From OM182 bacterium (GTDB taxonomy: Bacteria > Pseudomonadota > Gammaproteobacteria > Pseudomonadales > Azotimanducaceae): a stretch of DNA of 38,839 bases. Positions 25,254-38,780 of this stretch are shown here, in pieces. The position numbers and the translations under genes were made by a program. Numbering within the stretch: the first letter of the stretch is position 1; each line of letters starts with the position of its first letter. The notes beneath the pieces are model-generated. The model was given only the letters and a program-made list of their open reading frames with translations, ran no database searches and was not told the DNA's origin. The stretch lies in assembly GCA_004213835.1 (NCBI GenBank), contig SHAE01000006.1:1-38839 (forward strand). Direction: 5' to 3'.

Positions 25254-26096
25254 ATGCCGTCCATCAATGTCTCCATGGAGAACTTTCAAGCCGACGTTGT
25301 CGATGCGTCTCAGAACATGCCAGTGGTGCTGCTTTTCTGGGCTGAACAAGTACCGGAATCTGCCCAAGTCAAAGTCCTCGCTGAACTGGTGTTAGCCGAC
25401 TACGAGGGCAAGGCCGTGTTGGCGCTTTCGGATGTGGCTCAAGATCAAAGCTTGGCACCTAGGCTGCAGGTGCAGGGCCTGCCCAGTATTCGCATCATTC
25501 ATAAAGGAGCTATTGCCGAGCAGATCGATGGACCGGTGGATGAAGCACAGCTTCGCACCGTGATGGACGGGCTTACTCAGTCTTCCATCGAAGCCATGCA
25601 GGGTAATCTCGAGCAAATGATTGCGGCGGGTGACTTCGCTGCCGCTGCCGCGACGCTGCAGCAGAGCATTCAGGAAGAGCCTAATAACCAGGCGCTGAGA
25701 ATCGAGCTGGCGGACGTGTTGGTGCGCAAAGGCGATTTGGACGATGCGCGGACTGTGCTGGCGTCCATTCCCGAGGACACCGAAGGCAGGCCCAGACCAC
25801 AAAACCGGCTGGAGTTCGTCGAAGAAGCGGCTGCAATGGACAGTCTTGAGTCGTTGCAGGCGGCGGTCGCGGCAGATCCCCAAGACCTTGAGGCACGTTA
25901 CGCCTTAGCGGTCGTGCAAATGGTGGCTGGCGAAACCGAGGTGGCGCTACAAATGTGCTTGGAAATATTGCGTGATGATCGCGAGTTTCGGGACGACATT
26001 GGTCGCCTCACCATGATTCGCATATTCGATGTACTTGGTAAGGGCAATGAGTTGGCCACGAAGTACCGCAGGAAACTCTTCAACGCACTGCATTAA
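25254..26096 (+). CDS. cnoX: CnoX/YbbN-like thioredoxin-fold chaperone with TPR tail, no active-site Cys
   Basis: The product has 280 residues: an N-terminal thioredoxin fold (about 1-110) and a C-terminal tetratricopeptide-like helical domain (about 115-280), the architecture of CnoX (YbbN), a redox-linked chaperedoxin that passes clients to GroEL and DnaK. The active-site segment reads FWAEQVPES, so the CxxC of thioredoxins and the single Cys of the E. coli SxxC are both absent. The cis-Pro loop is kept as GLPSI. The C-terminal half (AAAATLQQSIQEEPNN, LEARYALAVVQMVAGE) matches the family. ATG 25254 has AGGA 9 nt upstream. A chaperone without the redox switch is the likely role. Confidence 0.85.
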   Translation: MPSINVSMENFQADVVDASQNMPVVLLFWAEQVPESAQVKVLAELVLADYEGKAVLALSDVAQDQSLAPRLQVQGLPSIRIIHKGAIAEQIDGPVDEAQLRTVMDGLTQSSIEAMQGNLEQMIAAGDFAAAAATLQQSIQEEPNNQALRIELADVLVRKGDLDDARTVLASIPEDTEGRPRPQNRLEFVEEAAAMDSLESLQAAVAADPQDLEARYALAVVQMVAGETEVALQMCLEILRDDREFRDDIGRLTMIRIFDVLGKGNELATKYRRKLFNALH

Positions 26097-26182
26097 TGCA
26101 TCCGAAATGCACTTCTGATGCCCGCCAGCGAACCCGATGGGGGACTGCGGTTTAAGTCTTGTGCAGACTCGGAGTACAAAAA

Positions 26183-26191
26183 TGTGGATAA
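26183..26191 (-). promoter_or_regulatory. DnaA box, perfect consensus
   Basis: TGTGGATAA on the plus strand reads TTATCCACA on minus, the strong-affinity consensus. Confidence 0.65.
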
Positions 26192-26302
26192 AAAATCGCT
26201 CGCTAACGATTAGTATTCGCGACCAAAATGCGTGCTTTTCAGGAATATTCTTACAGAAATATGACGTTATTAGTTAGCAAGCACTAACTTACGGTGGCTG
26301 TT

Positions 26303-26311
26303 TTATGCACA
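26303..26311 (+). promoter_or_regulatory. DnaA box matching TTATNCACA
   Basis: TTATGCACA fits the relaxed DnaA-box consensus, on the opposite strand to the 26183 box. Confidence 0.5.
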
Positions 26312-26375
26312 CGCGCACGCAAGAAAACTGTTAGTGGCAAGATGCATGCTTTCTTTCTCATCAAGCTCGAATACA

Positions 26376-26418
26376 TTCGTATAACCTATTGAAAAATATA
26401 TATAAATAGGAATTCGAA
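26376..26418. repeat. AT-rich imperfect palindrome (possible unwinding element)
   Basis: CCTATT (26385-26390) pairs with AATAGG (26405-26410), and outside them TTCG (26376-26379) with CGAA (26415-26418). The centre is almost pure A/T (GAAAAATATATATA). In an origin this would be the natural site of duplex opening. Confidence 0.5.
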
Positions 26419-26478
26419 CACGTAATTTGGGTGACTGACGGCGGCGCTAAGGTAAAAAGCGCACATTTCACGCGCAAG

Positions 26479-26499
26479 TTATCCTCAAAGTTATCCACA
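26479..26499 (+). promoter_or_regulatory. Two tandem DnaA boxes, one perfect
   Basis: TTATCCTCA (26479-26487, one mismatch) and TTATCCACA (26491-26499, perfect) are direct repeats with a 12-nt period, on the far side of the AT-rich core from the 26183 box. Confidence 0.6.
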
Positions 26500-26515
26500 G
26501 GGTTGGGTGCATTTC

Positions 26516-26524
26516 TGTGCACAA
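26516..26524 (-). promoter_or_regulatory. DnaA box, one mismatch
   Basis: TGTGCACAA reads TTGTGCACA on the minus strand, one base off TTATNCACA. It is the weakest of the five. Confidence 0.3.
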
Positions 26525-26720
26525 AAAGCATCCTACCTCGCCCAAGGGGAAGCGTGAGAAATTTGGTAACAGCGACAAGACAAATTGTAACGCGCTAAGT
26601 GCATGAGAACGCAGACGACGCCATGCGAAGGCCAGCAACAAAGATACCGGTGCGGGCCAATTAGGATCGCTAACGCGCCCATGGTAAAACGATCATTCCA
26701 AGGCCAAGGCGTTGCCAACC

Positions 26721-28118
26721 ATGACTGACTCAGAGCAAATCCCAGCAACCCCACCGCAGCGATTGCAGGAGACACTGGCTCGATATCAAGAATTAGGAGT
26801 CCGGCAGGTAAAGCTCGGCCTGACAGATATCGATGGGGTGATCCGCGGCAAATATGTGGGTCTGCAGAAGTTTGCTGGGCTCATGCACAAACAGGGAGGG
26901 TTCTGCGACTGCGTATTCGGTTGGGATATCGACGACCAACTCTACGATGCGGGTACCTATACCGGCTGGCACAGTGGTTTTCCGGATACTGGCTATCGAT
27001 TGTTGGTGGAAAGCGAACGCTGGCTGGCGGAAGAGGAGTGTCCTTACTTTATCGCCGAGTTCGTGCAACGCGACGGCAGTGATCACCCACTATGCCCTCG
27101 TACGCGGTTGCGTACGGTGTTGGATAACCTCGCGGAGCAAGGCTTAACGGTGCGCGCCGGGTTTGAGTACGAATTTTTTCTCTTCGATGAAACACCCCAT
27201 AGCATCCGCGACAAAGGTTATCGAAATCTCACGCCCATCACGCCGGGGAACTTTGGCTATTCGGTACTGCGAACTTCGGCGCTGGGCAAGGAGTTCACCG
27301 AGTTTATGAACTATTGCGCGGACATCGACTGCGAACTAGAAGGGTTGCACTGCGAAACCGGCCCCGGCGTGTGGGAAGCGGCCTTGGCCTCCAAATCGGG
27401 ACTGGAAGCCGCTGACCGGGCGTCGCTTTTTAAGACCATGGCCAAGGGTTACTTTCAGCGCCGATTGATGTTGGCGACCTTCATGGCGAAGTGGTCGATG
27501 GACTATCCCGGACAAAGCGGCCACCTGCATCTAAGTCTCAGCGATGCCGACGGTCAAAACATTTTCTACGATGCCGCAGATCCCGCGGGCATATCGGCAA
27601 AAATGCGCCAGGCCGTAGCGGGCTTGCAACGCTACTTGCCAGAGTTTTTGGCCATGCTCGCGCCAACGGTGAACAGCTATACTCGTTTGGTTAAAGGTGC
27701 CTGGGCACCCACCGCGGCGACTTGGGGTATTGAAAACCGCACCGCTGCGATTCGTGTCATTCCCGGCGATCTGCATAGCCAGCGCATCGAAGTACGAGTG
27801 GGTGGTGCAGACGCTAACCCCTATCTGGTGCAGGCGGCGGCCTTGGCTGCTATGAATATCGGCATGCAAGAACAGCTCACCCCCAACGAACCAGTCGCTG
27901 GCAATGCCTATGAAGCGGAGGATGACTTGCCGCTGCAATTTCACTTTGCGTCAGATCTTTCGTCCGCAGCGAATCGATTTGGCGAATCCACGGCGGCTAA
28001 GAAGCAGTTCGGTGAAACCTTCGTCGAGCATTTCGCCATGACGCGTCGATGGGAAGTCAGCGAGTACCATCGCACCATCAATAGCTGGCAGCTCGAACGT
28101 TATTTTGAAATAGTCTAA
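26721..28118 (+). CDS. Glutamine-synthetase-family ligase (gamma-glutamyl-amine / GlnT-PuuA-like)
   Basis: The product is a 465-residue cytosolic ATP-dependent ligase. GS fold markers are QVKLGLTDIDGVIRGK near residue 32 (N-terminal beta-grasp), GFEYEFFLF near 145 (metal Glu), GQSGHLHLSLSD near 264, ENRTAAIRV near 340 and GGADANPYLVQAAALAA near 370. The Tyr adenylylation loop of GlnA-I is not evident and RxGGADANPY replaces RxPD-type text. It therefore belongs with the GS-like enzymes that glutamylate amines, or with an ammonia-using GS of unusual type, rather than with housekeeping GlnA. ATG 26721 is preferred over TTG 26712. It is followed at 27 nt by an amidotransferase gene, as in amine catabolic cassettes (inference). 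Confidence 0.88.
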   Translation: MTDSEQIPATPPQRLQETLARYQELGVRQVKLGLTDIDGVIRGKYVGLQKFAGLMHKQGGFCDCVFGWDIDDQLYDAGTYTGWHSGFPDTGYRLLVESERWLAEEECPYFIAEFVQRDGSDHPLCPRTRLRTVLDNLAEQGLTVRAGFEYEFFLFDETPHSIRDKGYRNLTPITPGNFGYSVLRTSALGKEFTEFMNYCADIDCELEGLHCETGPGVWEAALASKSGLEAADRASLFKTMAKGYFQRRLMLATFMAKWSMDYPGQSGHLHLSLSDADGQNIFYDAADPAGISAKMRQAVAGLQRYLPEFLAMLAPTVNSYTRLVKGAWAPTAATWGIENRTAAIRVIPGDLHSQRIEVRVGGADANPYLVQAAALAAMNIGMQEQLTPNEPVAGNAYEAEDDLPLQFHFASDLSSAANRFGESTAAKKQFGETFVEHFAMTRRWEVSEYHRTINSWQLERYFEIV

Positions 28119-36990: not shown

Positions 36991-37124
36991 AACCCACTTG
37001 GCTGACTGATGGCGCTTGGCACGCGCGCTAGCGCTTGTCGAGGGACAACTGCTATGTCCGCCGAAATGCCGGTGATAGACTTTCACGCGTTCACGAGGAA
37101 GACTTTGCGGAGGAGAAACCCACT

Positions 37125-38780
37125 ATGGCGATGCAACATACGCCCTTACTGATGTCCAATATTTTAGATCGCGGTGCCACGGTCGCGCCCAATGAAGAAA
37201 TCGTTACCTTGACCGAAACTGGCGTGCGTCGTCAGTCTTACCGAGAAACCCGTGATCGCGCGCATCAGCTAGCTCATGCGTTGGCTGGCGCTGGCATCAA
37301 GGTCGGTGATCGCGTGGGCACCTTTATGTGGAACGGCTCGCGCCACTTGGAGGCGTATCACGCCGTTGCAGGCATGGGGGCGGTACTGCATACGTTGAAT
37401 GTGCGTCTGTCGCCAAAGGATCTCGAATACATCATCAATCATGCTGAAGACCAGATCATCATCGTGGACGCGGATGTATTGCCGCTGCTGGAAGTACTCA
37501 ACGGCAAAATACCGACCGTGCGTAAAATCGTCGTCGCTACGGAAGACGGCTTCGAGGGTTGGTCTACTCAGCTGCCTGATGCCGTTGACTATGAAGCGTT
37601 CATCAATGGCCAGCCCACCCACTACGAGTGGCCGCAGATTGACGAAAATTCTCCCATGGGGCTGTGCTACACCAGCGGTACCACGGGTAACCCCAAGGGC
37701 GTGGAGTACGAACATCGCTCCCAGTACCTGCATACGCTCACCCAGTGCATGACCGACTCCATGGGTCTAACCGGCACAGATACGGTTTGCGGCATCGTAC
37801 CCATGTTCCACGCCATGGGCTGGGGTATTCCATGGTCGGCGCTGATGTTGGGTTGTAAGCAGGTCATGCCCCATCGATTTATGGACCCCGCGCGCCTGCT
37901 GGACTTGATGGTGGCGGAAAAAGTCACGCTGTCTGCTGGTGTGCCGACGATCTGGCAGGGTGTGAAAGGCCTGTACGAAGCGAATCCCGATGCCTATGAC
38001 CTGTCATCGCTGTCGCGTCTCACTTGTGGCGGTAGTTCTCCACCACCTTCCCTAATTCGCTGGTTCTGGGATGAGCTCGACGTGGAAATGATCCAAGGCT
38101 GGGGCATGACCGAAACCTCGCCACTGGCAACGCTGTCGCGCCGCGTCATGAAGCGCTCTCAACTGGCGTTGTCTGAAGACGAGCAATTCGAAAATGTCGC
38201 CAAGGCCGGTCAGCTGATGCCCGGGTTGGAGTTGGATATCTTCGATGAAGAGTTCAATCGTCTGCCACACGATGGCGAAACGGTTGGTGAGATTTTGGTG
38301 CGCGGACCGTGGATTTGTTCTGAATACTTCAATAATCCGCAGCCCGACAAGTTCCATGACGGCTGGTTGATCACCGGTGACGTGGGCAAGATTGACCCAG
38401 AGGAATATCTGATCATCGCCGACCGCTCGAAAGACCTGGTGAAAAGTGGTGGTGAATGGATCTCGTCTGTGGATTTAGAAAATCACATCGTGGGTGTTGA
38501 AGGCGTGGCCCAAGCTTGCGTGGTGGCTCAACCGCATCCCAAGTGGGATGAACGCCCAGTCGCCTTGGTCATCTTAGATGCCGACAAAGAAGTAAGTGAA
38601 CAAACCATTTTGACGCACTGCGAAACGGCCTTCGCTAAGTGGCAGCTGCCGGACGAAATACTGTTTGTAGACGCGATACCGCTGACCTCAACCGGCAAGA
38701 TGGACAAAAAAGTTGTACGCGCGGATCTTGAGTCGAAGGGCTATCAGCTGCCATCGCTGCGCAGCGAATCGGCGGGATAA
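37125..38780 (+). CDS. Fatty-acyl-CoA ligase, AlkK-like
   Basis: The product is a 551-residue ANL-superfamily ligase. A3 motif YTSGTTGNPKG begins at Tyr182, the MFHAMGWGIPW motif is near 222, QGWGMTETSP near 325 supplies A5, and the hinge IADRSKDLVKSGGEWIS is near 435. The catalytic Lys is in TSTGKMDKK at the C-terminus. MFHAMGWG and the overall length fit the AlkK / medium-chain fatty-acid ligase group. With the CYP153-like P450 at the other end of the window it would suit activation of acids from alkane or lipid oxidation (inference). ATG 37125 follows GGAGGAG. The frame is open from 37035, but that segment is unconserved. Confidence 0.92.
   Translation: MAMQHTPLLMSNILDRGATVAPNEEIVTLTETGVRRQSYRETRDRAHQLAHALAGAGIKVGDRVGTFMWNGSRHLEAYHAVAGMGAVLHTLNVRLSPKDLEYIINHAEDQIIIVDADVLPLLEVLNGKIPTVRKIVVATEDGFEGWSTQLPDAVDYEAFINGQPTHYEWPQIDENSPMGLCYTSGTTGNPKGVEYEHRSQYLHTLTQCMTDSMGLTGTDTVCGIVPMFHAMGWGIPWSALMLGCKQVMPHRFMDPARLLDLMVAEKVTLSAGVPTIWQGVKGLYEANPDAYDLSSLSRLTCGGSSPPPSLIRWFWDELDVEMIQGWGMTETSPLATLSRRVMKRSQLALSEDEQFENVAKAGQLMPGLELDIFDEEFNRLPHDGETVGEILVRGPWICSEYFNNPQPDKFHDGWLITGDVGKIDPEEYLIIADRSKDLVKSGGEWISSVDLENHIVGVEGVAQACVVAQPHPKWDERPVALVILDADKEVSEQTILTHCETAFAKWQLPDEILFVDAIPLTSTGKMDKKVVRADLESKGYQLPSLRSESAG

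Follow-up and report, generated by a model that had tools for sequence, protein, structure and literature searches.

The gap between a cnoX-like gene and a glutamine synthetase-family (GS) gene in the DNA analyzed here probably carries a datA-like DnaA-IHF-DnaA element that would lower the level of active DnaA after initiation, a reading to which we assign a probability of about 0.7. The window, by which we mean the whole stretch of 38,839 nucleotides that was analyzed, is part of a MAG of 1.6 Mb in 103 contigs that is 70% complete. Datа-dependent DnaA inactivation (the DDAH system) has been worked out mainly in Escherichia coli. If our reading is true, the occurrence of a datA-like counterpart constrained in its spacing, both in uncultured Pseudomonadales and among other Gamma- and Betaproteobacteria, would give this layer of control a greater age and a broader distribution than studies of E. 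coli imply. Comparison of natural variants would then allow testing whether the machine is defined by spacing and not by genomic neighborhood. We found no datA counterpart in Pseudomonadales or Betaproteobacteria in the titles and abstracts of open-licence literature; counterparts of DARS2 in other gammaproteobacteria have already been published, according to passages of two reports (PMC4245941; PMC8682772).

The cnoX-like gene upstream (25254..26096, plus strand) encodes thioredoxin and TPR domains (Pfam Thioredoxin and TPR_20), and the GS gene downstream (26712..28118, plus strand) matches Pfam Gln-synt_C. Plasmid records showed partial similarity to the GS gene only (five records). Within the gap, a palindrome, GTTAGCAAGCACTAAC (26273..26288; GTTAG ... 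CTAAC type), starts 30 nt before the first DnaA box, TTATGCACA (26303..26311, plus strand). This box is followed on the same strand by an IHF-type sequence, TAACCTATTGAAA (26382..26394; consensus YAANNNNTTGATW), which is a candidate site recognized by its match and had gone unnoticed in an earlier note on this DNA. Two tandem boxes come next, TTATCCTCA (26479..26487) and the exact box TTATCCACA (26491..26499), again on the plus strand. Measured start to start, 79 nt separate the first box from the IHF-type sequence and 97 nt separate the latter from TTATCCTCA, with TTATCCACA at +12, and thus the tandem reads TTATCCTCA, 3 nt (NNN), TTATCCACA. Two minus-strand boxes lie farther out, an additional exact TTATCCACA at 26183..26191 and the weak TTGTGCACA at 26516..26524.

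All five of these boxes had been reported in the earlier note, and each was confirmed in place. Their clustering in the cnoX-GS gap is beyond chance: the 615-nt gap holds two exact boxes, or four when up to one mismatch is allowed, and neither count was matched in any of 2000 dinucleotide-preserving shuffles of the gap. Across the whole window there are 10 boxes at up to one mismatch, compared with a shuffle mean of 5.3, and 6 of 100 shuffles reach 10. Because this overall number is just mildly raised, the clustering is the striking part. In the entire MAG, TTATCCACA occurs exactly six times, two of them in this gap. The AT-rich core described previously also held up, with a GC minimum of 31% over 100 nt (from 26321) and of 23% over 60 nt (26369..26428) against 55.7% for the window, and the 60-nt minimum encloses the IHF-type sequence.

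Comparison across the genus revealed that the five boxes are unequal. We used 30 loci with a GS gene, consisting of the window and 29 of 36 relatives; the array counts leave out seven same-genus genomes (G012, G013, G021, G022, G024, G032, and G035), and the identity counts leave out L027 and L029, whose contigs begin within the array. The tandem TTATCCTCA-NNN-TTATCCACA is present in 30 of 30 loci, including 29 in the fetched stretch and one in G018, where it is found approximately 2.4 kb upstream of the GS gene. G075, an additional member of the genus, likewise carries the tandem. At one locus (L027, or L073; G027:C39), the tandem is located approximately 1.1 kb before the GS gene, and therefore an insertion between the two seems to be present. 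The first box, TTATNCACA, precedes the tandem by 175-177 nt in all 28 loci that are long enough. By contrast with this genus-wide trio at 26303, 26479, and 26491, an exact match to the minus-strand box at 26183 occurs in just 2 of 30 loci (the window and its closest relative, L001 and L002), and the weak box at 26516 occurs in near relatives only. Examining the boxes in relatives, as the earlier note had proposed, thus favored a functional site.

The IHF-type sequence is also retained at a defined position. The motif YAANNNNTTG appears at -97 or -98 from the tandem in 24 of 30 genus loci, and the pattern missed it in the other six, which counts against a datA-like reading. When the sequences are read at this fixed position, all 28 share AA in columns 2-3 and TG in columns 9-10. 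Mean pairwise identity in these 28 ungapped sequences is 0.979 for the tandem, 0.937 for the first box, 0.786 for the palindrome, and 0.692 for the IHF site, compared with 0.408, 0.334, 0.321, and 0.358 for spacers and flanks, values that are depressed because the alignment is ungapped. Some form of the palindrome is present in all 28 aligned sequences. We considered whether it might be a regulator site used genome-wide, and in eight genomes it was found at 0-3 distinct places per genome, with 0-5 for the reversed control. Since these counts are similar, the count test is uninformative. An ihfA gene scored above the family cut-off in seven of eight genus genomes.

A strict box-IHF-box pattern, with the reversed pattern as a control, was used to scan 24 genomes (18 of the genus and 6 outside it). 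Sixteen of the 24 matched, every one of them from this genus, and the control gave no matches; none of the six non-genus genomes searched had the pattern. Fourteen of the matching places correspond to the window-type locus, which was therefore found in 14 of the 18 genus genomes, and three correspond to a second locus discussed below. In G006, G009, G025, and G031, the strict pattern misses the window-type locus, yet the boxes and spacing are retained.

The arrangement resembles that of datA in E. coli K-12. We compared the window with the datA, oriC, DARS1, and DARS2 stretches of E. coli, and the datA stretch reads TTATCCACA, 65 nt, TAACCTATTGATA, 97 nt, TTATTCACA, followed by an opposite-direction box at +12. 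We take the two same-direction boxes that flank the single IHF site to be datA boxes 2 and 3, its high-affinity boxes, an assignment of our own made from the published order, and accordingly treat the boxes at 26303 and 26479 as their counterparts. The order of box, IHF site, and box, the directions of these boxes, and the IHF-to-second-box spacing (97 in E. coli; 97 or 98 in the genus) are shared. Moreover, the two IHF sequences share a stretch of 11 identical nucleotides (TAACCTATTGA), and both sites carry an additional box at +12, are intergenic, and are situated away from the origin. E. coli datA is approximately 467 kb from oriC; in G018, the genus member in which this distance was obtained, the array is likewise on the origin side and off oriC, 662 kb from the skew minimum on a 4.65-Mb contig. 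Passages of several reports define minimal datA as boxes 2, 3, and 7 plus one IHF site (PMC5742627; PMC4585315; PMC5835720; PMC10380432) and describe the essential boxes as sharing one direction with optimized intervals (PMC5742627; PMC4585315; PMC5835720). This geometry, together with the conserved boxes and spacing and the IHF-type sequence, supports the suggestion in the earlier note that the cluster might be a DnaA-control site acting in titration or reactivation.

There are also differences from E. coli datA. The spacing from box 2 to the IHF site is 65 in E. coli versus 79 in the window, and this spacing matters for datA according to a passage of PMC4585315. The +12 partner of box 3 points in the opposite direction in E. 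coli and in the same direction in the window. In E. coli datA, the low-affinity box 7 is probably TTGTAAACA, which precedes the first box by 12 nt, whereas the window has no box-like 9-mer at that distance and thus no obvious counterpart there, with weak boxes elsewhere still possible. Given the longer spacing and the lack of an obvious box 7, the site is best described as a variant of datA and not as a proven member. The window array further differs in its extra conserved palindrome and in its neighbors, which are cnoX and GS instead of the glyVXY-datA-queG order of E. coli. Among the array loci listed from a wider scan (at least 119; see below), there was no match to the datA neighbors orn, queG, and rsgA, and nnr was matched in two. 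We also considered tRNA read-through as it occurs at E. coli datA, and no tRNA gene was found in the window; of 34 other loci scanned, only L267 and L068 have one. More distantly, clusters of DnaA boxes outside the origin in Bacillus subtilis and Streptomyces coelicolor are called datA analogues in a passage of PMC5742627, and those of B. subtilis differ in that this species has no IHF, according to a passage of PMC13220808.

From features that were observed directly (the boxes, the IHF-type sequence, the spacing, their conservation, ihfA in the genus, and a non-origin place in relatives), we infer binding of DnaA and IHF, ATP hydrolysis, and its timing at the array. In the mechanism we propose, IHF would bind and sharply bend the AT-rich site at 26382, and this bend would juxtapose DnaA at 26303 with DnaA on the tandem at 26479 and 26491. 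DnaA from both sides would then meet head to tail; the conserved boxes all face one direction, which would suit head-to-tail contacts of ATP-DnaA. By analogy with datA, the assembly might promote hydrolysis of DnaA-bound ATP, and also hold DnaA, after initiation. The outcome would be that re-firing of oriC is limited. The genome that contains the window has a weak DnaA-domain match on contig C22 (24 bits, cut-off 23), which presumably represents Hda.

The possibility raised in the earlier note that the cluster is a replication origin at an unusual place is extremely improbable. It would account for boxes clustered around an AT-rich core, as is also seen at an oriC beside dnaA. The window's MAG has no match to the DnaA C-terminal domain, and therefore placement of the origin rests on relatives. 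Along the 4.65-Mb contig of G018, sampled in 20-kb stretches, GC skew is positive up to 1.14 Mb, negative between 1.20 and 3.83 Mb, and positive again from 3.84 Mb onward to the end. Within 3.832-3.850 Mb, cumulative skew reaches its minimum at 3,842,513, just upstream of dnaA and between frames read as yidC and dnaA. The surrounding cluster reads parB-parA-rsmG-mnmG-mnmE-yidC ... dnaA-dnaN-recF-gyrB, in which dnaA and mnmG were confirmed by family search and the other names are our reading of frames. The array of G018, at 4,504,291, is 662 kb from this minimum and within positive skew, and on the array-bearing contig of G007, skew is positive in 20 of 20 stretches that cover its first 400 kb. 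A V-shaped minimum just upstream of dnaA was found in four of four genus members (G018, G007, G025, and G004) as well as in G141. Furthermore, of 33 genomes with matches to both dnaA and mnmG, 24 have the two on a single contig at a distance of 5.8-7.6 kb, one has them 18 kb apart, and eight have them on separate contigs.

The association of skew with dnaA is not absolute in the order, and this leaves the origin reading some room. In G112, a local minimum is approximately 9.5 kb from dnaA, and in G044 (L117, G044:C7) and G149 (L122, G149:C208), from another family, the slope is unchanged through dnaA, such that the origin in that family may be elsewhere. We considered the array as the origin of this second family (f9) and rejected it, with G044 showing positive skew in twelve adjoining 20-kb stretches around the array. 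A displaced copy of oriC was likewise rejected, because the IHF-97-box half of the array was absent by pattern at the dnaA-side loci of eight relatives (0 of 8). Thus, for the genus and as far as skew can tell, the array is not a replication origin. The GC-skew check named beforehand in the earlier note went against the origin that it had proposed. A separate idea, that the array is always on the leading strand, is true for G018, G007, and G044 and is not general: among the places listed, the array strand has positive skew in 22 of 41 from Gamma- and Betaproteobacteria.

Other readings accept a role for DnaA away from the origin. In a DARS-like site, assembly of DnaA and IHF would drive the release of ADP and the regeneration of ATP-DnaA ahead of initiation. 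E. coli DARS1 and DARS2 are also DnaA-box clusters away from oriC, DARS2 requires IHF in passages of PMC4585315 and PMC4245941, and DARS-type sequences are known from other proteobacteria according to passages of PMC10380432 and PMC5742627. However, the three-box core of DARS1 and DARS2 has boxes I and II in opposing directions, as described in part of PMC8682772, whereas the conserved boxes of the array all point one way and the two boxes that oppose them, at 26183 and 26516, are not kept across the genus. The arrangement of an IHF site 97 nt before a box was also absent from the E. coli DARS1, DARS2, and oriC stretches, of which the oriC negative is weak because the motif used found no IHF site in that stretch. 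An IHF site is present in E. coli oriC. We consider a DARS-like function unlikely. A passive titration cluster, in which the boxes merely sequester DnaA and have no catalytic role, is in keeping with a cluster in a MAG that has six exact boxes in all, but it leaves unexplained the fixed IHF position and the fixed 175-177 nt between boxes, and we regard it as very unlikely.

The proposal of a DnaA-regulated promoter, also made in the earlier note and applied here to the GS gene cluster, draws on the position of the tandem, whose start precedes the GS match by 87-317 nt in 28 of the 30 genus loci. However, this distance is variable, as L027 and G018 demonstrate, and similar arrays persist where GS is not adjacent. 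In G169, from another genus of the same family, the array has cnoX on one side and, on the other, a homologue of the gene that occupies 37035-38780 in the window; all three share one strand, as they do in the window, and no GS match was found within the 14 kb. L219 has no GS match in its 8-kb locus. In G044, the array is flanked by genes that we read as dut and trmA; hemE and priA flank it in the betaproteobacterial loci L218, L233, and L272. In L229 and L241 the array is before priA, and the remaining loci have other neighbors. These arrangements favor a site that stands on its own over a promoter of GS, and as a result the promoter reading is weakened and appears quite unlikely.

The datA-like arrangement extends beyond the genus, with a patchy distribution. 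The exact tandem is present in 7 of 194 genomes of the order, corresponding to three of three genus members sampled, one of four other genomes of the family, and three of six from a genus of a second family. In the latter, G149 and G176 share with G044 a spacing of 190 and similar upstream sequence. Of the four non-genus arrays in the order, a single one, L069 (G149), matched the IHF pattern, with the motif at -100, and hence the IHF evidence outside the genus and within the order is thin. The IHF-plus-tandem strict pattern was matched in 5 of 369 sampled genomes of the class, with no control matches, so the strict form is uncommon. A first box was not required by this pattern, and all five (window included) have one 174-187 nt upstream, which is TTATNCACA in four and TTTTACACA in one. 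The low frequencies in the order and the class also count against the datA-like reading, as do the scarcity of the IHF motif in the non-genus arrays and the misses of the strict box-IHF-box pattern, both within the genus (14 of 18 genomes matched at this locus) and outside it (0 of 6).

A contig scan for the box-gap-tandem arrangement that did not require an IHF site gave at least 119 loci and is not a census. Judged by record titles, 70 of these loci, representing 72 places and including seven loci of this genus, are from Gamma- or Betaproteobacteria; records titled merely Proteobacteria or Pseudomonadota were counted as other. Among the places listed, the IHF consensus with up to one mismatch is located at -95 to -100 in 47 of 72 gamma- and betaproteobacterial places, compared with a mean of 1.0 and a maximum of 4 matches in control windows of equal width. 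For other bacteria, it is found in 4 of 50 places listed (control mean 0.95, maximum 3). The enrichment blurs when two mismatches are allowed, with 59 of 72 and 11 of 50 of the places listed matching and control means of 6.5 and 4.7, respectively. Origin genes (dnaA, yidC, mnmE, or gyrB) occur within the stretch of up to 8 kb at 4 of the 70 gamma- and betaproteobacterial loci listed and at 13 of the 49 other loci listed, and many of the latter are therefore probably ordinary origins.

The second locus recovered by the strict pattern scan is beside hemF. It was found at G018:C6:1,085,134-1,085,304 (L283), G031:C268:2678 (L284), and G009:C500:3604 (L285). In G018 and G009, this second array lies between a BON-like lipoprotein gene and hemF (names from our own reading), and in G031 it adjoins hemF. 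Its two boxes are spaced at 162, the value also found in E. coli datA, and its IHF site is at 96 or 97. A search for hemF yielded 23 loci, one of them too short for judging, and a box pair with a spacing of 153-163 adjoins hemF at 9 of the 22 judged, with the IHF motif in five of those nine. By spacing, the hemF-side array is the better match to datA, which is a further point against the datA-like reading of the window site; by distance to the origin, the window-type array is the better match. In G018, the second array is near the place, between 1.14 and 1.20 Mb, where positive skew gives way to negative.

Perhaps, then, these arrays are versions of one movable DnaA-IHF-DnaA switch with a near-fixed IHF-to-box spacing of 97-98 nt. 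Under this proposal, which we advance tentatively and at somewhat less than even odds, the switch would be an old element that controls replication in Gamma- and Betaproteobacteria and occupies lineage-specific loci (cnoX-GS, dut-trmA, hemE-priA, and BON-hemF). Some genomes would have two versions, one of the 176-nt type and one of the 162-nt type that shares its spacing with E. coli datA; in one genome (the 4.65-Mb contig), these would be on the origin and terminus sides of the chromosome.

Two further observations came from the wider scan. L216, on a contig titled Phycisphaerales, has a complete array whose IHF motif is at -97, and this contig is possibly a misbinned proteobacterial one. In addition, the Herminiimonas records L218 (3361-3555 and 4168-4362) and L272 (1110-1305 and 1497-1690) each carry two successive arrays, approximately 0.4-0.8 kb apart, in the hemE-priA gap.
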